Origin: Leptolinea sp.
Lineage (GTDB): Bacteria; Chloroflexota; Anaerolineae; Anaerolineales; Anaerolineaceae
Direction: 5' to 3'
Assembly: GCA_012798535.1 (NCBI GenBank)
Contig: JAAZMZ010000031.1
Span: forward strand, 1-49,113
Length of the DNA stretch: 49,113 nt
Of this stretch, positions 1,481 through 15,618 are shown piece by piece. Position numbers and translations under genes: made by a program. Within the stretch, counting starts at the first letter, position 1, and each line of letters begins with the position of its first letter. The notes below the pieces were generated by a model that ran no database searches, had not been told where the DNA came from, and saw nothing but the letters and a program-made list of their open reading frames with translations.

Positions 1481-4400
1481 ATGTTTCAAAATATCGTAAA
1501 AGCCCTGGGGGGAGACCCTCACAAACGCGAGGTTCAAAATATGGTGCCCATCCTCGAGCGGATCAACCTGCTCGAGGATGAGTTCGAAAAATTGAGCGCC
1601 GATGCTCTGCGCGCCAAAACCGATGAGTTCCGCCGGCGTCAGGCTGCCGGAGAGAGCCTGGACGACCTGCTGCCCGAGGCTTTCGCGGCTGTCCGCGAAG
1701 CCAGCAAACGCACCATCGGGCTGCGGCATTATGACGTTCAAATGATCGGCGGCATCACCCTGCACCGCGGCAATATATCCGAGATGCGCACGGGTGAAGG
1801 GAAGACCCTGGTGGCCACCCTGCCGCTGTATCTAAACGCTCTAACAGGCCGCGGCGTCCATCTGGTCACGGTGAACGATTACCTGGCGCGCCGTGATGCC
1901 CGCTGGATGGCGCCCATCTATCAGACACTCGGCCTGTCGGTCGGTGTGCTGCAAATGGCCGCTCGCACGGAAAACGGCCGGAACGCCTTTCTGGTGGACC
2001 TGAGTAAAACCTCTCCCCATGAGGACCAGCATCAACTCCAGGTGGTATTACGCGCCGAAGCCTATAAAGCCGATATCACCTACGGCACGAACAGCGAATT
2101 TGGTTTTGATTACCTGCGCGACAATTTGACCATGTCACTGCAGGAACGCGTTCAACGCGGCCATTACTATGCCATCGTCGACGAGGTGGATAACATCCTG
2201 ATCGATGAAGCCCGCACGCCGTTGATAATCAGCGGCCCGGCCGCCGACCAGGCCGAATGGTATATCCGCATGTCTCAGGTGGTGCGGCAGCTCCAACCGG
2301 ACGATTACGATATTAATGAAAAAGACCGCACCGTATCATTGACCGAAATCGGCGAATCACACGTGGAAGAGATACTGGGAGAAACCCTGCGCGATCCCGA
2401 CCGGCCGGAAGATATCACCCCGGAACAGGCCCAAAAGCTGGGTTACCTCGAACAGGCTTTGCGCGCCCAATTCCTGTTCAATCGCAACAAAGATTATCTG
2501 GTGCAGGGCGGCAAGGTGGTGATCGTCGATGAATTCACCGGACGTTTGATGCCCGGCCGCCGCTGGTCGGATGGTCTACACCAGGCTGTGGAAGCCAAGG
2601 AAAACGTGAAGGTGGAAGCGGAAAATGTGACCTACGCAACCATCACCCTTCAGAATTACTTCCGCATGTACGAGAAACTGGCCGGCATGACCGGTACCGC
2701 CCTGACCGAAGCGGAAGAGTTCTACAAGATCTACAAATTGGATGTGCTGCCCATACCCACTAATCTAGAATTCCAGGCTTCCAAAGCGAATTCACCACTG
2801 GAAGAAATCACGACAAAGGACGAAGATGGGTATAAGGTGGCCTACTTCGCCCACCGCGGTGATCCCGAGAAAAAGCCGGTGTATTGGCGGCGTAAGGATT
2901 ACCCCGACGTGGTTTACCGCTCGGAAGAAGCCAAGCTTCGCGCCATATCTCTGGAAATCATCGAACGCCATATCAAAGGTCAGCCGATTCTGGTGGGCAC
3001 AACTTCAGTGGAACACAGTGATCTTCTGGGTGACCGCCTGAGGGCGGAACCGGTGCGAACCCTCCTTCAAGCCGTATTGCTCCGCCAGGTCTGGTTGGAA
3101 AAAAGCAACCGGCAGGATGAAGAACGCAACATCCCTGAACTGGAATTTCTCAATGCACCCCTCGATCAGTTGAAACCTCCGGAAATGCGCCAGCTGGCGC
3201 GCTCTCTGGATCTATCCATGAATATGGAAGAACCGGCAAACCTGGATCGTCTGGCAGCTTTCTTCCGGATAGATGAAAACCAGAGGCCGCGACTGCTTAA
3301 TGTGATCCAGGCGGGTATTCCACTGTCGGTTTTGAATGCCCGCAAGCATGACGAAGAATCTCAGATCATCGCCAAAGCCGGAGCTTTTGGGGCGGTAACC
3401 ATTGCTACCAATATGGCCGGACGCGGTGTGGATATCAAACTGGGCGGCGAGCTGCCTGAAGATATCCTGGCGGATGTCAACCATGTTCTTGCCCGGACCG
3501 GGCTTGACCCGTACGGAATGAACAACGAAGAACGCCGCCGCGAACTGGTGAAAGTTCCACCGGCGGATTATGGCATCTATGAAGAATCCATCAAAGCTTT
3601 CCTGCAGTACATGGATGACATGGAACGTGTCCGGGCGCTGGGTGGATTGCACGTCATCGGCTCAGAACGGCATGAAGCACGCCGCATTGACAATCAACTG
3701 CGCGGCCGTGCCGCCCGCCAGGGCGATCCCGGTTCTTCGCGTTTTTATCTTTCACTTAATGACGATCTGATGCGCCTGTTTGGCGGCCCCAATGTAGAGA
3801 ATCTCCTCAAGCGGCTGAATATCGATGAGAGTATTCCCATAGAAAGCGGTATGGTCGGCCGCATGGTCGAACAATCGCAGGAGCGGGTGGAAGGTTCCAA
3901 CTTTGATGTCCGCAAGCATCTGCTGGAATACGATGATGTGTTGAACACGCAGCGAAAGCGTATCTATTCACAGCGCGATATGGTCTTCACCAAAGAAGAC
4001 CTCAGCGAAGATGTCATGGACATGTTGCACAATGAACTGGCCGTGCGTATTCCCGCCGGTCTCAAAGATGAAGAAGGTCCCTGGCGGCTGCTGGCTTATC
4101 TGGAAGAGATCCAACCTCCGCTCAGTTATGGAGATATTCATTACCCGTCATTCAGTTTTCGTCTGCTGGTGAATGAGATACGCAACCAGCTTCCCAAAGG
4201 TGAAGTCTCACTGGAAAAATTGAAGGAAATTCTGGTGAACATAACCGAACGGGCATTGGCCGCCGAAGATGAACACCTGCTGCACAGCCTGGATACCCTC
4301 CTGGAATCCACAGGCGGTTCTCTGCAAACCCAGATCGACGAACGACTGGAAACCCTGGATACCTATTTCGATGGTATCGGCGAGGTGGAAGAAGGCATGC

Positions 4401-5518
4401 CGCAGCGCCGCCCCCAGGAACTGCTGGATGAACTGGTCGGTTTGGTACGCGTTCCATTGCGCCTGCCGGGTGATCAACTGCGGCGGCTTGCAGAAGCGGA
4501 CGACGATGTCAAAAACGGGCTGCGTCAGCAGATCAATTCCACCCTGCTGGCCATCACCGCCACCCGGGTGGTGGGCGGATTACGCCGCCGCCTGCCGGAA
4601 GCCGCGGAGATACGCCTTTCTCTTTCGCCCGATGACGGCTGGAAAGAAATTGCCAATCAGGTCTATGCAAAAACCGCCGATCTTCTGGCGCTGCGCAAAG
4701 ACCGGTTGTTTGGCTCAGGCGCTCAGGTGCCCCACGATGTAGAGAATCTCCTCGGCCGGACGGGTGGTGCGGAACTGAGTGATACCTTCCTGATCAACTC
4801 ACTGATGACGATTGCCACCGGCAGTCGTATGGTCTTTGACAAACGGACTCACCGGCAGGTACGCCAGAGTACAAACCGGTTGAATTATGTTTACTTTGCC
4901 GCACAGTTGCTTGGTTCCGTCCCGGCGGAAAAAATGACCCGGATGGTACTTGAGCATCTGGAAGGCGCCATCGACGCGCTGCGTTCTGCCATGGGCCTCG
5001 CCGAATGGGAAAGACTTCAGCAAAGCAATATCACGCTCATGCAGGTCGATCCGGCCGTGCAGGCCAAATTCATCGAAGCGCTCGGCGAAGACCGCTATAA
5101 GCGATCATCGAACCTGCCACTGGCTGACATCGATGAGGATTTCAAGACAACAGCCTGCGAGGTTATTGGTGCCAGGGTGCAGACGGAAATCTATCGGCAT
5201 ATCCTGCTCAGCGTGATCTCGGATCTCTGGGTGGAATACCTGACGAAGGTCGAAGCCCTCCGCGTTTCCATCGGATTGGAAGCCTACGCGCAGCGTGATC
5301 CCCTGGTGCAATACAAGAGCAAGGCTTCCGAGATGTTCACCCAGTTGCTGGGTGATATCCGCATGGGCGTGATTAGTCGAATGTTCGCCTACCAGCCGCG
5401 CCGCGCAGCCACCCCGACCGGCGAAGCAGCATCAGCCGGTGATCAAACTGCCTTGGACTCGACTGCCTTGACAGCGCAGCAATCTGGCGGACAGAAAAAG
5501 AAACGCCGGCGGCATTGA
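1481..5518 (+). CDS. secA: Protein translocase ATPase SecA, greatly enlarged
   Basis: SecA is the motor ATPase that drives unfolded preproteins through SecYEG. Visible motifs are Walker A (MRTGEGKT, residues 102-109), DEVD (234-237), [12 protein letters not shown], the preprotein-binding region, [17 protein letters not shown], the [15 protein letters not shown] finger and the helical scaffold [18 protein letters not shown] (about 810-830). The protein has 1345 residues, while most SecAs have 800-1000. Extra sequence sits at about residues 161-185, about 90 residues lie inside the second nucleotide-binding domain (near 525-610), and roughly 250-300 residues separate the scaffold helix from the terminal helices (ISDLWVEYL, near 1245). 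The tail ends in KKKRRRH and lacks the Cys/His SEC-C zinc motif. No clear Shine-Dalgarno precedes the ATG, so coupling to lpdA is likely. Confidence 0.93.
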
Positions 5519-8926: not shown

Positions 8927-9379
8927 ATGACCAAACAAAATCAAAGTGAATCTGGTTTACAGGTATATGTCGATCATGGGGATTTAATTCCCATGCTGCA
9001 GCAGATACAGGAACAAAACGGCTACATTTCCAGTGATAGTATTCAAGAAGTAGCCCAGACACTGCGAATCTCTGAAAATGAGGTCTACGGAGTAGCCTCA
9101 TTTTACGCGCAATTCCGGTTTCAAGCTCCCGGCCGACATTCGATTAAGATTTGCCTGGGAACAGCGTGTCATGTTAAGGGGGGAGAGAAATTGCTTGAAT
9201 CCCTCCAAAGGGAATTGAATATCAATCCGGGCGAAACAACCGCAGATGGATTATTCGATCTTCAACGGGTAGCCTGCCTGGGTTGTTGCGCGCTGGCACC
9301 TGTCATGCAAATCGACGATCAAATCTATGGGCGGGTGACCAATACCCGTCTGAAACGCATTCTGGAGAGCTATGCTTGA
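8927..9379 (+). CDS. NuoE/HydC-like [2Fe-2S] subunit
   Basis: This 150-residue protein is the thioredoxin-like ferredoxin subunit found in complex I, NAD-dependent formate dehydrogenases and bifurcating hydrogenases. The four cluster ligands are C76 and C81 (CLGTAC) and C117 and C121 (CLGCC). It has the helical N-terminal region (NGYISSDSIQEVAQTLRI) and the VYGVASFYAQF motif of the family. It would relay electrons to or from the adjacent NuoF-like flavoprotein. It is the first gene of a five-gene operon and overlaps the next gene by 8 bp. No membrane complex I genes are nearby, so the complex should be soluble. Confidence 0.9.
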   Translation: MTKQNQSESGLQVYVDHGDLIPMLQQIQEQNGYISSDSIQEVAQTLRISENEVYGVASFYAQFRFQAPGRHSIKICLGTACHVKGGEKLLESLQRELNINPGETTADGLFDLQRVACLGCCALAPVMQIDDQIYGRVTNTRLKRILESYA

Positions 9380-11237
9380 TCTCACTGGACGCCGGAAAGC
9401 GGCTATGGAAGTCTGGCAGGATCTGGAATCCAGCTCCCTGCCGGTTATTTATTTTGGTATGGCATCCTGCGGAAGGGCAGCGGGAGCGGTGGAAGTCCGC
9501 AAAGCAGTAGAAGAAGCACTGCAGGAGAATGATCTATCCGCCCGGCTGGTGGATGTGGGTTGCATCGGTCCCTGCTACCTGGAACCAATAATGGATATTG
9601 CCATGCCCGGTTGGGCGCGTGTCAGCTACGGTCAAATGACCCCTGCCCGCGCGAAGAAACTGGTGGTCGATGCGATCAAATCCGGCGCTCCTCAAACCAT
9701 TGATGCTCTTGGAGTGGTGGAACCGCTGGATGATCGACAGACCGGCGGTATTTCCAACCTCTTCGAACACCCCATGCTCAAACAACAGGTGCGTGTTGTA
9801 TTACGCAATTGCGGCTTGATCGATCCTGAAGAATTTGACCATTATCTCGCCCGGGATGGTTACGCGGGTCTGGAGAAAGCTCTGCAAATGACTCCTGAAG
9901 AAGTCATAGACCAGGTGCGCATTTCAGGATTGCGAGGGCGCGGAGGCAGCGGCTTTCCAACATATAAGAAGTGGGAAATCTGCCGGGCTGTCCCCGGTGA
10001 TGAAAAATATCTGGTATGCAACGCCGATGAGGGTGATCCGGGAGCATTCATGAATCGCTCCTTGATCGAAGGCGATCCACACGCCCTGCTGGAAGGTATT
10101 TTGATCGCAGCATACGCGGTAGGTGCCAACCATGGTGTGATCTACATCCGCGCGGAATATCCGCTGGCAGTCACCCGTTTGCATAACGCGCTTCGACAGA
10201 TGCGCGAGAATGGCTTGCTGGGGCAAAACATTCTGGGGACGAATTTCAACTTTGAGATCAAAATCAAAGAGGGCGCCGGCGCCTTCGTCTGCGGTGAGGA
10301 AACAGCTCTCTTCGCTTCCATTGAAGGTAAGCGCGGTATGCCGCGTTCCCGACCTCCTTTCCCGGCTGTAAAAGGTTTATACGGAAAACCGACCGTCAAC
10401 AACAACGTCGAGACTCTCAGCACCCTGCCCAACATTCTCCGCAATGGAGCAGATTGGTACCAGCAGTTCGGCACAGCGTCCAGCCGTGGAACTAAAACCT
10501 ATTCTCTGGTCGGTAAAGTGCGCCGCACAGGTTTGATCGAAGTTCCCCTGGGCATGACCCTGCGCCAGATCATCTTCGATATCGGGGGGGGAACCGAAAA
10601 GCCGTTCAAAGCCGTTCAAACCGGTGGTCCTTCAGGCGGCTGTCTTTCAGCAGAATATCTGGATACACCGGTGGATTACGAATCCCTGCGCGCAGCCGGA
10701 TCTATCATGGGTTCGGGCGGCCTGATCGTCATGGATACGGATACCTGCGCCGTGGATATCGCCCATTATTTCCTCGAGTTCATCCAAAAAGAATCCTGTG
10801 GAAAATGCGCTCCCTGCCGCATCGGCACGCGCCATCTGGTGGAAATCCTGGAACGGATCACCAGAGGTACGGCGGAAATAAGCGATCTGGATAGACTTGA
10901 AAGCCTGGGCCGGACGATTTCGCAGGGATCTCTCTGCGGTCTCGGCCAATCCGCTCCCAATTCAGTGGTCACATCACTGCGTTCTTTCCGCAGTGAGTAC
11001 GAGACTCATATCCGGGAGGGATACTGCCCAGCCGGTGTTTGCAAAGAATTATTCCAGTACACCATTCTGCCGGATGTCTGCACCGGCTGCCAGGCTTGCT
11101 CCAGAGTTTGTCCCGTGGAAGCCATCAATGGCGAAGTCCGCCAACCGCATACACTGGACAGTCAGAAATGTATCCGCTGCCGGGCATGTTTTGAAGCCTG
11201 CCGGTTCAACGCCATCGTAGTGAGGCCGATCCAATGA
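9372..11237 (+). CDS. NuoF/HydB-like NADH-binding flavoprotein with C-terminal ferredoxin
   Basis: This 621-residue protein has three parts. An N-terminal thioredoxin-like domain keeps three likely [2Fe-2S] ligands (C33, C64, C68) in the CGRAAGA variant. The central NuoF core has the NADH/FMN motifs GLRGRGGSGFP (186-196), NADEGDPGAF and KEGAGAFVCGEETALF, and the [4Fe-4S] ligands C476, C479, C482 and C522. A C-terminal 2[4Fe-4S] ferredoxin has CTGCQACSRVC (570-580) and CIRCRACFEAC (600-610). This layout matches HydB of electron-bifurcating [FeFe] hydrogenases and related enzymes, where the FMN is the NADH site. The ATG has GGAGAG upstream. It overlaps its neighbours on both sides. Confidence 0.92.
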   Translation: MLDLTGRRKAAMEVWQDLESSSLPVIYFGMASCGRAAGAVEVRKAVEEALQENDLSARLVDVGCIGPCYLEPIMDIAMPGWARVSYGQMTPARAKKLVVDAIKSGAPQTIDALGVVEPLDDRQTGGISNLFEHPMLKQQVRVVLRNCGLIDPEEFDHYLARDGYAGLEKALQMTPEEVIDQVRISGLRGRGGSGFPTYKKWEICRAVPGDEKYLVCNADEGDPGAFMNRSLIEGDPHALLEGILIAAYAVGANHGVIYIRAEYPLAVTRLHNALRQMRENGLLGQNILGTNFNFEIKIKEGAGAFVCGEETALFASIEGKRGMPRSRPPFPAVKGLYGKPTVNNNVETLSTLPNILRNGADWYQQFGTASSRGTKTYSLVGKVRRTGLIEVPLGMTLRQIIFDIGGGTEKPFKAVQTGGPSGGCLSAEYLDTPVDYESLRAAGSIMGSGGLIVMDTDTCAVDIAHYFLEFIQKESCGKCAPCRIGTRHLVEILERITRGTAEISDLDRLESLGRTISQGSLCGLGQSAPNSVVTSLRSFRSEYETHIREGYCPAGVCKELFQYTILPDVCTGCQACSRVCPVEAINGEVRQPHTLDSQKCIRCRACFEACRFNAIVVRPIQ

Positions 11238-13303
11238 CCCTTTTATCCCTGACCATCAACGGAAAGACCGTACAGGCTGAGAAAGGACAGACCATCCTGC
11301 AGGCTGCGCAGAGAAATGATATCGATATTCCAACCCTGTGCGCGTATAAGGACCTACCGCCTTTCGGCGGATGCCGTATGTGCGTGGTTGAGGTGGATGG
11401 AATGCGCGGTTTTCCAACCGCCTGTACAACACCGGCAGAAGAAGGAATGATTGTCCGTACCGAAACTACGGCTCTGCAGACTCTTCGCCTCGAGACATTC
11501 AATATGCTACTCAGTGAACATCCGCTGAGCTGTCTGGTATGCCCGGAAAAAGGGAATTGCACGGAATGTATGATGACCATCCGCAAAGGTGGTGTCACCA
11601 CCGGCTGCGGATCCTGTCCAAAAGATCAGCAATGTGAGTTGCAAACTCTTGCGAAACGACTCGGAGTGGATGAAATTCGTTTACCGGTAAAGTACCGTAT
11701 GTACCCGGTGGAAAAATTCGATCCATTCTACGATCGTGATTACAATTTGTGCATTCTATGCGGTCGTTGTGTGCAGGTTTGTGATAAATTGCATATCCTC
11801 AGCACATTGACATTTATAGAACGCGGCTCACATACAAAGGTCGGGACTGCTTTCGAGCGAAGCCATGTGGATGCCGGTTGCAGTTTCTGCGGTGCCTGTG
11901 TCGACCGCTGCCCGGTGGGTGCCTTAACAGAAAAAACTCGCAAATGGGAAGGCGTTGCCGAAAGCGAGGTGGAATCGATCTGCCCATATTGCTCTGCCGG
12001 CTGTTCCATCCGCCTGCAGGTGCGCAAAGGCACGGTCATCGGCTGTCTGCCCGGAGAAGATCCAACTCTTAATGCCGGAAACTTATGTGTTCACGGCCGG
12101 TTTGGCCTGTCTGAGGTTGTGAATTATCCCGGGCGGTTGAAAACCCCGTGGCGGCAGGTGGATGGGCACAAATTCGAATGTGGCTGGGAGGAAGTTATAG
12201 AACTGGCCGCGGCAAAGCTTGCTGCCGCCAATCCCCAGAATATAAGTCTGCAAATTTCAACCAACCTGCCGGATGAGGACCTCTTTGTGGCCCGCAAATT
12301 CGCTGAACAGGTCCTACATTTGCCCGTTCCGGATGCCGGCAAAGCAGTTTCACCTTCAGGATTCGAACGCCTGGTACAACGCGCAGCCACTTTCGAACAG
12401 ATGCGCCAGGCAGATTGTCTGCTGGTTGCCGGCCTGGAAACCCGATACTCTGCTTCCTGGCTGGAATACGAATTCAAACAGTTGAAACAAAACGGGGCAA
12501 CCCTGATCTCTGCCGGCAACGGGAAACGACCATTAGACCGTTTCGCCAATGAATTCATCTATACAAATGATGAAGGTGCGGAAGAAGCCTTCGTTGACGT
12601 GATTGACAGGCTCGGCAGGGAAAACCAGGGCGCAACCACTCTGGATCGCGCCATTTGCGCTCTTCACAACAGCCGCCGCGCATTTCTCCTGATCGGTCCG
12701 GAATATCTGAGTAATCCACGCATGCTTGAGCAACTGGCAATTCTGGCTGAAAGATTGCAGGCAGGTGTGATCTGCCTTCCCATGCAGGGTAATTTCTACG
12801 GGGCGATCCATACCGGGATCATGGGGAAATCCGCCTCACAAAGCTCACAGCCGGAGGTCCTGTATTGTATCGGTGACCAACCCGAACAACCTGCCGACCT
12901 GATCCTTTACCAGAATGCTTTTCCAACAGTCGATGTATTGGCAGATATCGGCCTGCCTACTGCCCTTTTCACCGAACGGGACGGTACATATACCAACGTA
13001 GAGTTCCGCCAGCGGAGATTCATAAAGGCCGTGGAACCAGCGGGATTGGCGCGGCCGGACTGGCAAATCATTGCCGGTATCGCCAGACAAATGGGCGCTT
13101 CTGGTTTTGATTACCATTCCATCGGAGATATTCGGAAGGAAATGACTTCTTCGGATACGGAAAGGATCTGGAAACCAGGGCTTGCCGCGGAGCTACTATC
13201 GATATCCGGAAACGAGCCAGTATTCATGGGTTCTCCACTATCCACCAGAGTCGCCGGTTTACGTACACTCTTCCCATCACCGGAAGCGGAGGCAGGTGAA
13301 TGA
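11234..13303 (+). CDS. NuoG-like iron-sulfur subunit with shortened molybdopterin-type domain
   Basis: This 689-residue protein starts with a [2Fe-2S] ferredoxin (C36, C47, C50, C64). A His-Cys region follows (H96, C100, C103, C109), enlarged by a second Cys group (C112, C125, C128, C134). Next come two [4Fe-4S] motifs (C173/176/179/183 and C216/219/222/226) and a fourth [4Fe-4S] motif typical of the molybdopterin oxidoreductase N-terminus (C250, C253, C257, C285). The remaining 400 residues resemble a truncated molybdopterin-fold region, as in NuoG. The hydrogenase H-cluster motifs are absent, so it is not HydA. It probably bridges the flavin subunits electronically. It overlaps both neighbours by 4 bp. 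Confidence 0.85.
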   Translation: MTLLSLTINGKTVQAEKGQTILQAAQRNDIDIPTLCAYKDLPPFGGCRMCVVEVDGMRGFPTACTTPAEEGMIVRTETTALQTLRLETFNMLLSEHPLSCLVCPEKGNCTECMMTIRKGGVTTGCGSCPKDQQCELQTLAKRLGVDEIRLPVKYRMYPVEKFDPFYDRDYNLCILCGRCVQVCDKLHILSTLTFIERGSHTKVGTAFERSHVDAGCSFCGACVDRCPVGALTEKTRKWEGVAESEVESICPYCSAGCSIRLQVRKGTVIGCLPGEDPTLNAGNLCVHGRFGLSEVVNYPGRLKTPWRQVDGHKFECGWEEVIELAAAKLAAANPQNISLQISTNLPDEDLFVARKFAEQVLHLPVPDAGKAVSPSGFERLVQRAATFEQMRQADCLLVAGLETRYSASWLEYEFKQLKQNGATLISAGNGKRPLDRFANEFIYTNDEGAEEAFVDVIDRLGRENQGATTLDRAICALHNSRRAFLLIGPEYLSNPRMLEQLAILAERLQAGVICLPMQGNFYGAIHTGIMGKSASQSSQPEVLYCIGDQPEQPADLILYQNAFPTVDVLADIGLPTALFTERDGTYTNVEFRQRRFIKAVEPAGLARPDWQIIAGIARQMGASGFDYHSIGDIRKEMTSSDTERIWKPGLAAELLSISGNEPVFMGSPLSTRVAGLRTLFPSPEAEAGE

Positions 13304-14130
13304 TGAACCAGGTACTGGAACGCAGCATGGTCGCACCGAATATTCATCACTTACGCTTGCAAGCACCGGAAATTGCCCGTGCGGCAAAACCCGGACAATT
13401 TGTCATCCTTCAGGCGGAAGATGACGGCGAACGTATTCCCCTGACCTTATCAGACTGGGATCCAGAAAAGGGCGATATTTCGGTTGTTTTCATGCAGGTC
13501 GGTGCTTCCACCGGAAAATTGGCCGCGTTGAAAGCCGGTGATAACATACCCACAGCAGCCGGTCCTCTCGGAAATCCAATGGAAATCGACAAATTTGGCA
13601 CGGTAATCTGCGCCGGCGGCTGCTATGGGATTGCCAGCATTTTTCCGATTGCCAGAGCATTGAAAAGCGCAGGCAACCGGGTGATCTGTGTGATCGAAGC
13701 CCGCAGTTCTTTCCTGTTCTACTGGCAGCAAAAATTACGCCGGGTTTCCGATGAACTGATCTTTATCACACGTGATGGATCGCAGGGGCGCCGCGGACAT
13801 ATCAACAATCTTGGAGCCATTATCGCCTCCATCGAAGGCGGTGTAGATCGGGTGATCATCAATGGCTGCAATTACGTGATGATGCGCGGGTGTGAGGAAA
13901 CCCGTCCTCTGGGGATTAAAACAATTGTCAGCCTGAACACGTTGATGATCGATGGAACTGGAATGTGCGGAGTGTGCCGTGTATCTGTGGGCGCCGCAAC
14001 GAAATTCGCCTGTGTGGACGGACCGCATTTCGACGGGCATGAAGTCAACTGGGACGAGCTCTCTAACCGCAGGCAGGCTTACCTTCGTGAAGAAACCATC
14101 ACCCTGCGCACCAGCGCTCCCGAAAAGTGA
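13300..14130 (+). CDS. nfnA: NfnA-like FAD/[2Fe-2S] NAD(H)-binding subunit
   Basis: This 276-residue protein belongs to the ferredoxin-NADP reductase-like group with PyrK and the small subunit of NfnAB (NADH-dependent reduced ferredoxin:NADP+ oxidoreductase). It shows the FAD-binding region (IPLTLSDWD), the nucleotide-binding motif CAGGCYGIASIFPIARAL (104-121) and the C-terminal [2Fe-2S] motif DGTGMCGVCR, with likely ligands D218, C223, C226 and C238. An Asp ligand is known for NfnA. In Nfn this subunit carries the NAD(H) site. It starts with an ATGA overlap after GGAGGCAGGTGA, and the adjacent nfnB supports this assignment over PyrK. Confidence 0.88.
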   Translation: MMNQVLERSMVAPNIHHLRLQAPEIARAAKPGQFVILQAEDDGERIPLTLSDWDPEKGDISVVFMQVGASTGKLAALKAGDNIPTAAGPLGNPMEIDKFGTVICAGGCYGIASIFPIARALKSAGNRVICVIEARSSFLFYWQQKLRRVSDELIFITRDGSQGRRGHINNLGAIIASIEGGVDRVIINGCNYVMMRGCEETRPLGIKTIVSLNTLMIDGTGMCGVCRVSVGAATKFACVDGPHFDGHEVNWDELSNRRQAYLREETITLRTSAPEK

Positions 14131-14138
14131 GACACTCT

Positions 14139-15563
14139 ATGGAAACCGCTTCAGCGCCAGCGCCTAAGAAAATGAATCTACAACGGGTGGAAATGTCCAA
14201 ACAGCCGCCCGAAATCCGCCGCCAGAACTTCGACGAGGTAGCCTTCGGTTACACTCCTGAAGAGGCTATATCCGAAGCCGGCCGCTGCCTGGATTGTAAG
14301 AAGCCGGGTTGTGTCGGGAATTGTCCGGTGGAAATTGATATCCCGGCTTTTATCCGCCAGATTGCCGCCGGAAATTTTGCTGAAGGCATTCGCATCATCC
14401 GGCAGAAGAATTGTCTGCCGGCAGTCACCGGAAGGGTATGCCCTCAGGAAGAGCAGTGTGAAGGCGGGTGTGTGTTCGCAAAAAAGGGGGGTGCACTTGC
14501 CATCGGCCGGTTGGAACGTTTTCTAGCCGACTGGGAAGCTTCACAAAAAGGAACCGTCGAATCCACTCTCCGCCCACAACCGACCGGGCGGAAAGTCGCC
14601 GTGATCGGCGGCGGCCCGGCCGGATTGACCGTGGCCGGAGATCTCATCCAGCTTGGACATCAGGTCACCGTCTATGAAGCCCTGCATAAAGTGGGTGGGG
14701 TACTGGTTTATGGCATCCCTGAATTCCGTCTGCCCAAACGCATAGTCCGCCATGAAGTGGAAATACTCAAATCACTGGGCGTCGAAATGGTAACCAGCTA
14801 TGTGGTGGGTAAAACCCGTACGGTCGACAGCCTGTTGGAGGAATACGACGCAATATTCATTGGCAGCGGCGCAGGTTTGCCCTGGTTCATGGATATTCCC
14901 GGAAACAATCTCAACGGTGTGTATTCGGCCAACGAATATCTGACCCGTATGAACCTGATGAAAGGCTATACCTTCCCGGATGTGCAGACTCCCATCAAAC
15001 AGCATCATCGGGTGGCCGTGATCGGTGGAGGCAATGTAGCCATGGATTGCGCCCGCACAGCGCTTCGACTGGGCGGGGAATCCCATATCGTTTACCGCCG
15101 TTCGCGCAACGAGCTCCCTGCCCGGCTCGAAGAAGTGGAAAATGCCGAAGAGGAAGGTGTGATCTTTGATTTCCTCACCCTGCCTACCGCCTGCATCGGA
15201 GATGAACACTCCTGGGTTACCGGGCTGGCCTGCCAAAAGATGGAACTCGGCGCTCCGGATGCCTCCGGGCGGCGTTCTCCTGTTCCCATCCCGGGTTCCG
15301 ATTTCGTGATGCCCGTGGACGCGATTATTTATGCCATCGGCAACAGTCCCAATCCTTTGATCTCCGCCACCACACCCGATTTGACCATCGGCCGCAAGGG
15401 CAATATCGAAGCGGAAGAAACCACGGGAAAGACTTCCAAAGCCAGAGTCTGGGCAGGCGGTGATGTGGTCACCGGTGCAGCGACGGTCATTCTGGCCATG
15501 GGCGCCGGACGCAAAGCTGCCCGTGATATTCATGCATATTTGATGACACTTCCGCCCCGGTAA
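14139..15563 (+). CDS. nfnB: NfnB-like NADPH/FAD electron-bifurcating subunit (GltD family)
   Basis: This protein of about 474 residues matches the glutamate synthase small-chain/NfnB family. The N-terminal Fe-S region has CLDCKKPGCVGNCP and CPQEEQCEGGC, followed by the FAD motif VIGGGPAGLTVAGDL, the NADPH motif VIGGGNVAMDCARTAL and the C-terminal flavin motif GAATVILAMGAGRKAARDI. In NfnAB this subunit holds the bifurcating FAD and the NADP(H) site. No glutamate synthase large subunit is nearby, which argues for NfnB over GltD. The ATG at 14139 is preferred over a GTG at 14127 that overlaps the nfnA stop, because the GTG lacks a ribosome-binding site. It is the last gene of the operon. Confidence 0.87.
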   Translation: METASAPAPKKMNLQRVEMSKQPPEIRRQNFDEVAFGYTPEEAISEAGRCLDCKKPGCVGNCPVEIDIPAFIRQIAAGNFAEGIRIIRQKNCLPAVTGRVCPQEEQCEGGCVFAKKGGALAIGRLERFLADWEASQKGTVESTLRPQPTGRKVAVIGGGPAGLTVAGDLIQLGHQVTVYEALHKVGGVLVYGIPEFRLPKRIVRHEVEILKSLGVEMVTSYVVGKTRTVDSLLEEYDAIFIGSGAGLPWFMDIPGNNLNGVYSANEYLTRMNLMKGYTFPDVQTPIKQHHRVAVIGGGNVAMDCARTALRLGGESHIVYRRSRNELPARLEEVENAEEEGVIFDFLTLPTACIGDEHSWVTGLACQKMELGAPDASGRRSPVPIPGSDFVMPVDAIIYAIGNSPNPLISATTPDLTIGRKGNIEAEETTGKTSKARVWAGGDVVTGAATVILAMGAGRKAARDIHAYLMTLPPR

Positions 15564-15582: not shown

Positions 15583-15618
15583 AAAAACCACGATGGCTCG
15601 CTGATATCGTGGTTTTTT
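15583..15618 (+). terminator. Rho-independent terminator after the redox operon
   Basis: The stem ACCACGAT / ATCGTGGT is flanked by an A-run and TTTTTT, and lies about 20 bp after the nfnB stop. Confidence 0.9.

Follow-up and report, generated by a model that had tools for sequence, protein, structure and literature searches.

Why does one operon of an uncultured Leptolinea sp. combine genes that resemble the electron-input half of HydABC or complex I with genes for both subunits of NfnAB, and do the products work as one enzyme? The window analysed here is the entire 49-kb contig JAAZMZ010000031.1 (49,113 nucleotides; assembly GCA_012798535.1, genome total 3.5 Mb). Five open reading frames (ORFs) on its plus strand, at 8927-9379, 9372-11237, 11234-13303, 13300-14130 and 14127-15563, overlap one another by 8 bp (ATGCTTGA), 4 bp (ATGA), 4 bp (ATGA) and 4 bp (GTGA). 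hmmscan names the first three a NuoE-like protein, a NuoF-like protein with a C-terminal 4Fe-4S dicluster domain and a NuoG-like protein, the fourth NfnA-like (PRK06222, 339.9 bits; cut-off 220) and the fifth NfnB-like (gltA, 575.2 bits; cut-off 471.75). None of the five proteins shows an hmmscan match to Fe_hyd_lg_C or to a membrane subunit, and no additional molybdopterin protein is encoded among the five ORFs. An intrinsic terminator on the same strand closes the operon (15586-15618, hairpin and U run, -16.5 kcal/mol; z -3.98, equally good in 1 of 200 shuffles). Coordinates, overlaps, protein names and terminator thus bear out the observation, made in an earlier sequence-only reading of this DNA, that the five overlapping genes are one operon. 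Our answer to the question, which we hold with moderate confidence, is that the products would form one soluble complex, in which a bifurcating Bfu core is joined through the NuoG-like subunit BfuA to a complete NfnAB serving as NADP(H) module, and in which the acceptor site of NfnA has changed.

What are the first three genes? In a PDB sequence search, BfuB (NuoF/HydB/StnB-like, 621 aa, 9372..11237, plus strand) matches Nfn-type Bfu and HydB chains from 3e-221 (9n5u_B) to 2.9e-180, a range that includes 9bov_B, 8oh5_B, 7t2r_B and 7q4v_B, and the top complex I chain reaches only 2.4e-113. Because of these matches, genes 1-3 are better named BfuCBA or HydCBA-like than NuoEFG; of the two resemblances named in the sequence-only reading, HydABC and complex I, the core follows the first. 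BfuB comprises a flavin mononucleotide (FMN) and NAD(H) site, a central 4Fe-4S region and a C-terminal 2x[4Fe-4S] ferredoxin domain, and shares with HydB both the N-terminal part and the C-terminal two-cluster domain. Its central and C-terminal cluster cysteines recur in no fewer than 54 of the 55 operon homologues. C33, in the N-terminal part, varies (42 of 53 have it), and 7t2r_B is also without it. BfuC (NuoE/HydC-like, 150 aa, 8927..9379, plus strand; PF01257, 172.7 bits), a thioredoxin-like [2Fe-2S] subunit, keeps C76, C81, C117 and C121 in 54 of 54 homologues. The BfuBC core therefore carries the cluster cysteines of the Bfu family, C33 of BfuB excepted. Clusters B2-B5 are described as the mark of a bifurcating BfuB, non-bifurcating homologues being without them (PMC9304861). 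Genes 1-3 encode a HydBC/Stn-type (Bfu) bifurcating core with a NuoG-like BfuA and not a spare complex I module.

BfuA (689 aa, 11234..13303, plus strand) is the candidate electron bridge, with a molybdopterin-domain remnant in which sequence searches and residue columns find no catalytic residue. All 62 BfuA rows read, 54 from loci of a collection of named genomes and 8 from the family, have the cysteines of a [2Fe-2S] cluster, of two ferredoxin-like clusters (C173-C183 and C216-C226) and of an A5-type cluster. In none of these rows is there a Cys at the catalytic column of formate dehydrogenase (FDH), a column that could not be read in 3 of the 57 collection loci of this BfuA type, where the pieces (L131, L137, L140) are too short. 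Neither the Cys or selenocysteine followed by His of an Fdh-Bfu nor an extra FDH subunit is found, and PF02906, the H-cluster domain expected of FeFe-Bfu or HydABC, has no match in BfuA. What the operon does show is the combination of Type 3 Bfu, ferredoxin-like clusters in BfuA together with additional subunits, and we infer that NfnA and NfnB act as the subunits for a third substrate, as in Type 3 Bfu. Where HydA has one Cys box BfuA has two (H96/C100/C103/C109 and C125/C128/C134; 11519..11635, plus strand), their seven residues being present in 62 of 62 rows; the doubled box may hold an extra [4Fe-4S] cluster. In C. saccharolyticus Nfn-ABC (9bov_A) the BfuA-like alignment is interrupted from query residue 113 to 124, a stretch lying between the two boxes, and the gap is occupied by the NfnB-like domain of that chain (chain 99-499). 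The corresponding break in 8oh5_C spans BfuA residues 115 to 160. From these alignments we infer that NfnB docks at the doubled Cys box.

NfnB (478 aa, GTG start, 14127..15563, plus strand), the NADP(H)- and flavin adenine dinucleotide (FAD)-binding subunit with two [4Fe-4S] clusters, is nearest in the PDB to T. maritima NfnB (4ylf_B, 1.1e-163), with 8oh5_C at 8.8e-79. Its seven cluster cysteines, Glu130 and Arg201 are kept in 51 of 51 operon homologues. In Stn and related Type 1 enzymes a Lys replaces the Glu ligand of the proximal cluster: Lys stands opposite E130 in 9n5u_A and 9bov_A, and it is from this LERF/LKRF alignment that the equivalence of E130 with K170 of StnC is read. 8oh5 we take to be Stn, its chain of 1172 aa having the length of StnC given in PMC10482914. 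That paper reports Lys170 in StnC where NfnB has Glu, and its conclusion is that the flavin of StnC is non-bifurcating. The operon's NfnB is not of this kind, as E130 is in place throughout.

NfnA (276 aa, 13300..14130, plus strand; PDB 5jca_S, 9.9e-79), the FAD and [2Fe-2S] subunit, is equally complete, its [2Fe-2S] ligands being kept (D218 in 58 of 58 operon homologues, C223, C226 and C238 in 57 of 57) as is ERxP of the FAD motif (58 of 58; at the Thr position of ERxPxT, 23 have Thr, 31 Ser and 4 Asn). The FAD and [2Fe-2S] motifs of NfnA and the cluster motifs and N5 Arg of NfnB are thus those of NfnAB, but the canonical NAD motifs of NfnA are not. GGGVG has become GGC[Y/F]G, with Cys108 (13621..13623, plus strand), and GP has become GC, with Cys190 (13867..13869, plus strand). 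Both cysteines are found in 58 of 58 operon NfnA versus 0 of 49 unlinked NfnA, in a comparison that omitted matches below 150 bits and judged linkage within 1.5-kb flanks; the 49 are 51 comparators minus two that lie behind an FDH-type BfuA (L179 and L190), and they include one locus (L205) counted as unlinked despite a marginal 27.7-bit BfuA-like ORF. Two further positions differ in operon NfnA, D158 (R in 50 of 58) and G133 (E in 56, D in 2). In FNR-type folds the motifs holding C108 and C190 presumably line the nicotinamide site. With a cysteine in each of its NAD motifs, this NfnA differs from the usual NAD-linked form, and it would not pass electrons to NAD+ as Nfn normally does. The proposal that both NfnAB subunits are encoded therefore stands as far as their completeness is concerned and fails for the ordinary character of NfnA; to describe the operon as NfnAB with a module added could be an oversimplification. 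The closest named relative of this NfnA is in Leptolinea tardivitalis (86%, among the best 120 of 7999 proteins; Chloroflexota, Anaerolineaceae), the type strain of which is, we assume, in culture. P. furiosus NfnII, in which the NAD domain is changed and which is reported to lack NAD-dependent activity (PMC6405883), would be a precedent for an NfnA with another acceptor.

Does the arrangement recur? Among 147 family genomes, 8 have the operon's type of BfuA (E <1e-140; next best 8.2e-67), and it is these 8 that also encode an NfnA with 50% identity or more. The order BfuC-BfuB-BfuA-NfnA-NfnB is contiguous in 7 of them; in the eighth (G058) one contig ends within BfuA and another opens with the BfuA C-terminus, followed by NfnA and NfnB. 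A second NfnA match at E <1e-20 was found in none of the 8, and PNTB in none of 4 genus genomes, the same search being positive in 4 of 14 controls. A scan of the named genome collection was evaluated for the best 80 of 578 loci, which sort into 57 of the operon's BfuA type, 18 that we call SAR202-type and 5 FDH-type. Among the 57, 44 are assessable, having at least 2.3 kb behind BfuA or a fusion, and in 42 of these NfnA and NfnB lie directly behind BfuA, a count made after the SAR202-type and FDH-type loci were set apart; without that sorting, the pair is found in 46 of 64 loci with room. When 5 shortened loci showing both genes are added there are at least 47 operons, 35 of which carry one of 16 phylum labels, Asgard archaea included, and 12 no label; the labels are those of the records, mostly metagenome-assembled genomes, and may include misbinning. 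The five-gene order is not due to chance, because it recurs in further genera and phyla. Nor is a hydrogenase or FDH subunit a constant companion of the homologues, the pattern that the sequence-only reading had named as fatal to its proposal, the FDH catalytic Cys being absent from all 62 BfuA rows of the operon's type.

BfuA and NfnA are, moreover, a single ORF in an Acidobacteria locus (L121) and in a Lokiarchaeota locus (L147). When the NfnA part of the Acidobacteria fusion was searched against a protein database, the best 120 of 1490 proteins comprised 76 BfuA~NfnA fusions, 53 of them 800-849 aa long, and 44 NfnA~NfnB fusions. C108 is present in 76 and C190 in 75 of the 76 BfuA~NfnA fusions; the 44 NfnA~NfnB fusions have neither. 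An AlphaFold2 model of a natural fusion (predicted local distance difference score, pLDDT, 86.5; predicted template modelling score, pTM, 0.79) has parts that match NfnA of NfnI and BfuA of Nfn-ABC, in fold searches made with the fusion P0146 in place of the operon's own proteins. Because BfuA and NfnA are naturally fused, it is likely that the five proteins form one enzyme. Conserved order, fusions and the lack of a second NfnA in the 8 family genomes also uphold the earlier idea of one Stn-like unit that has no hydrogenase, keeps NfnA as a protein of its own and uses a NuoG-like subunit as bridge. In an NfnA tree that took in every fourth fusion, the fused state takes 3 changes among rows with both cysteines and the two-Cys state takes 2, a single two-Cys clade not being rejected (approximately unbiased test, p-AU 0.606). 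In a BfuA tree of the first ~420 residues only, the 62 rows of the operon's type are one group, with 1 change. A protein of another make also came to light, P0127 (1229 aa), in which a formate-dehydrogenase-like part with full molybdopterin domains is joined to an NfnA with both cysteines; the sequence at its catalytic region is RFCDAP, the Cys being present and the His absent.

How would such a complex work? NADPH would reduce the FAD of NfnB, from which a low-potential electron would pass through the two [4Fe-4S] clusters of NfnB and enter BfuA near the doubled Cys box. On its arrival at the FMN centre of BfuB, NAD+ and ferredoxin would be reduced there. NfnA would sit against BfuA and receive the high-potential electron at its [2Fe-2S] cluster and FAD; the proposed onward transfer to an acceptor other than NAD+ is the least certain step. 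The cycle would be reversible, and NADPH could also form from NADH and reduced ferredoxin. A bolder version, which we regard as rather unlikely, is a two-stage bifurcase: NfnB would split the electrons of NADPH, the low-potential branch would drive a second split at the FMN of BfuB, and the high-potential branch would end at a C108/C190 flavin-dithiol site with a new, non-pyridine acceptor. If true, two unrelated bifurcation chemistries would run in series within one enzyme, from Chloroflexota to Asgard archaea.

Several observations weigh against a single complex with NfnAB as its NADP(H) module. Two of the assessable loci depart from the pattern, one without NfnAB (L139) and one with a broken NfnA (L148). 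The 18 SAR202-type BfuA are without the catalytic Cys, yet NfnAB follows in 0 of the 15 with room; this type was first separated by neighbourhood, and the BfuA tree afterwards placed it with the FDH type (97*). Of these BfuA, 16 of 18 also have the doubled Cys box, which we have for that reason dropped as a specific mark of partnership with NfnAB. Support for the group of NfnAB-type BfuA in the tree is weak (48). Some FDH-type BfuA likewise adjoin NfnAB, in other Chloroflexota; Cys-His is present in those of L144, L152, L153 and L209, and the FDH-type L154 and L157 are likely of selenocysteine type, as their ORFs end near the catalytic position. The NfnA adjoining an FDH-type BfuA is without the Cys pair in five cases (L144, L152, L153, L154, L190), and the pair is present in one (L179/L208, genome G314). 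Finally, an NfnA that has given up NAD+ would leave the complex without a defined net reaction.

Could the enzyme instead work like Stn, NfnB being a mere entry port for NADP(H), BfuB the sole site of bifurcation and NfnA a structural leftover whose nucleotide pocket no longer functions? Stn does have the same core and a non-bifurcating NfnB-like domain on its NuoG-like subunit, according to PMC10482914, and the NAD motifs of NfnA are indeed changed, which makes this account possible, if not probable. However, the Glu and Arg of the bifurcating type are kept in every operon NfnB, NfnA retains its [2Fe-2S] ligands in 57 of 57 and ERxP in 58 of 58, and a leftover would not be expected to hold two new cysteines in 58 of 58 homologues.

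Two separate enzymes sharing an operon, a BfuABC whose partner is encoded elsewhere and a free NfnAB, seem unlikely to us. The same doubt is voiced on other Bfu gene clusters in PMC9304861, and the genome does have candidate partners in other places, a NiFe-Bfu cluster on C45 and two [FeFe] hydrogenase genes on C82 and C41. But fusion of BfuA to NfnA in 76 of the best 120 proteins, the position of the pair directly behind BfuA in 42 of 44 loci and signature residues of NfnA that track linkage to BfuA all argue for a joint enzyme. The C45 cluster itself (L091, 6100-14512) encodes a nickel hydrogenase large subunit, a 20-kDa-type small subunit, BfuA, two BfuB-like genes and a 122-aa BfuB-like piece, and similar sets are seen in several family loci.

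Less probable still is the conversion of NfnA to a flavin-dithiol site, in which C108 and C190 would be a redox pair beside the FAD that hands the high-potential electron to a disulfide or other thiol-reactive acceptor. The near-invariance of both cysteines (58 of 58 in operons, 75 of 76 in fusions) and the reported want of NAD-dependent activity in NfnII (PMC6405883) favour it, whereas no partner protein is conserved next to the operon and the thiol chemistry is a guess. That the operon encodes an NADH module split off from complex I, or a formate dehydrogenase in disguise, is highly improbable, and both readings were dismissed, the second for the operon's BfuA type: the first three genes are homologous to NuoEFG and BfuA to FdhA, but the genome's complex I cluster on C47 has its own NuoE, NuoF and NuoG beside proton-antiporter-type subunits, so that no membrane arm lacking NuoEFG is there to be served, its NuoF is without the C-terminal ferredoxin domain of BfuB, and BfuA has no Cys at the FDH column.

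How does the proposed complex of Bfu core and NfnAB compare with known systems? Stn and the Type 1 Nfn-Bfu (Sporomusa ovata StnABC, T. sibiricus Nfn-Bfu, C. saccharolyticus Nfn-ABC) have the same BfuBC-type core and, as a common feature, an NfnB-like NADP(H) part attached to the NuoG-like subunit. There, however, this part is fused inside BfuA, with Lys at the ligand position and no NfnA, whereas the operon has separate NfnA and NfnB ORFs, Glu130 in NfnB and the Cys pair in NfnA. Known NfnAB (T. maritima, P. furiosus NfnI) shares the FAD and Fe-S motifs of both subunits and the NfnB signature residues, but stands alone without Bfu subunits and has GGGVG and GP in place of GGCYG and GC. The Type 3 NiFe-Bfu HydABCSL of Acetomicrobium mobile combines the core with a NuoG-like BfuA of near length (692 vs 689 aa) that takes electrons from extra subunits, as proposed for the operon's BfuA; its third substrate, in contrast, is H2 via HydSL, and it has a single Cys box and no NfnAB. 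PMC9304861 proposes that the core of Bam-Bfu, the benzoyl-CoA reductase complex, acts together with another bifurcating module, although that module is HdrA, the substrate benzoyl-CoA and the number of subunits eight. P. furiosus NfnII (Xfn) likewise has an NfnA with a changed NAD domain (PMC6405883), but its substitutions differ, 5vj7_B retaining GP and being without GGC, and the available text names no Bfu subunits for it. SfrAB of Geobacter may be a further relative. On comparison, Stn and Type 3 Bfu appear to be the nearest described systems, and Bam-Bfu a parallel for two bifurcating modules. The available text of PMC9304861 describes Nfn-Bfu solely as a BfuA bearing an NfnB-like domain, and leaves its clades 1-17 without assigned function. 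We found no description of the five-gene set in the papers searched, which did not cover the supplementary clade tables of PMC9304861. The best reading is thus a widespread variant of the Bfu family, undescribed as far as the searched papers show, and not a new principle. What surprises most is how many phyla it spans, how common BfuA~NfnA fusions are and how nearly invariant the Cys pair is.

The loci set apart in the scan are of interest in their own right. The SAR202-type loci (L159-L161, L163-L170, L172-L178; Chloroflexota, many of them SAR202/Dehalococcoidia) hold a second BfuC-BfuB-BfuA type, with a BfuA of 864-975 aa (plus two shorter contig pieces) without FDH Cys or NfnAB; an FNR-like flavoprotein gene (PF00175) comes next in both loci scanned. 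In L153 (4929-7958) a BfuB in which a GltD/NfnB-like domain replaces the C-terminal ferredoxin part is followed by FDH-type BfuA, NfnA and NfnB, and a similar GltD-like ORF stands at the start of L152 (55-1902); the two loci appear to be a Bfu-FDH-NfnAB variant with two NfnB-like parts. In L140 (3511-5603) a gene pair precedes BfuC, the first of ~270 aa with a HATPase domain, the second of ~420 aa with Fe_hyd_lg_C (a weak match, 91 bits) and an FeS domain, and pairs of similar size precede BfuC in L101, L105, L109, L129 and L133-L135. We have not counted these Zixibacteria-like loci as having an upstream hydrogenase, as none of four ~420-aa genes examined shows an L1 or L3 H-cluster pattern, two having an L2-like PCPAK; a regulator or assembly pair is possible.

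Upstream of the operon in the window lie 303 bp of intergenic space, and a promoter scan gave 6 sites vs 6.6 in shuffles. The Pfam-named genes on the 5' side (SecA, an S1 protein and an M19 dipeptidase) and on the 3' side (two M16 peptidases) look unrelated to it. SecA (1481-5518, 1345 aa) has stretched DEAD-like and P-loop matches, 404 residues over 284 profile positions, which suggests large insertions.

What, then, would the operon mean for the organisms that carry it? Uncultured anaerobes under at least 16 phylum labels appear to link their NADPH, NADH and ferredoxin pools through such a predicted enzyme. In the databases these proteins go by names such as sulfide/dihydroorotate dehydrogenase-like protein or NuoG/flavin reductase, which hide the system, so that metabolic models probably misplace NADPH production. 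If the five proteins are one complex, it would place next to each other two bifurcation sites of different chemistry, FAD in NfnB and the FMN-FeS centre in BfuB, and whether one bifurcation drives the other becomes testable. The cysteine pair of NfnA, in turn, points to an electron acceptor that nobody has looked for.

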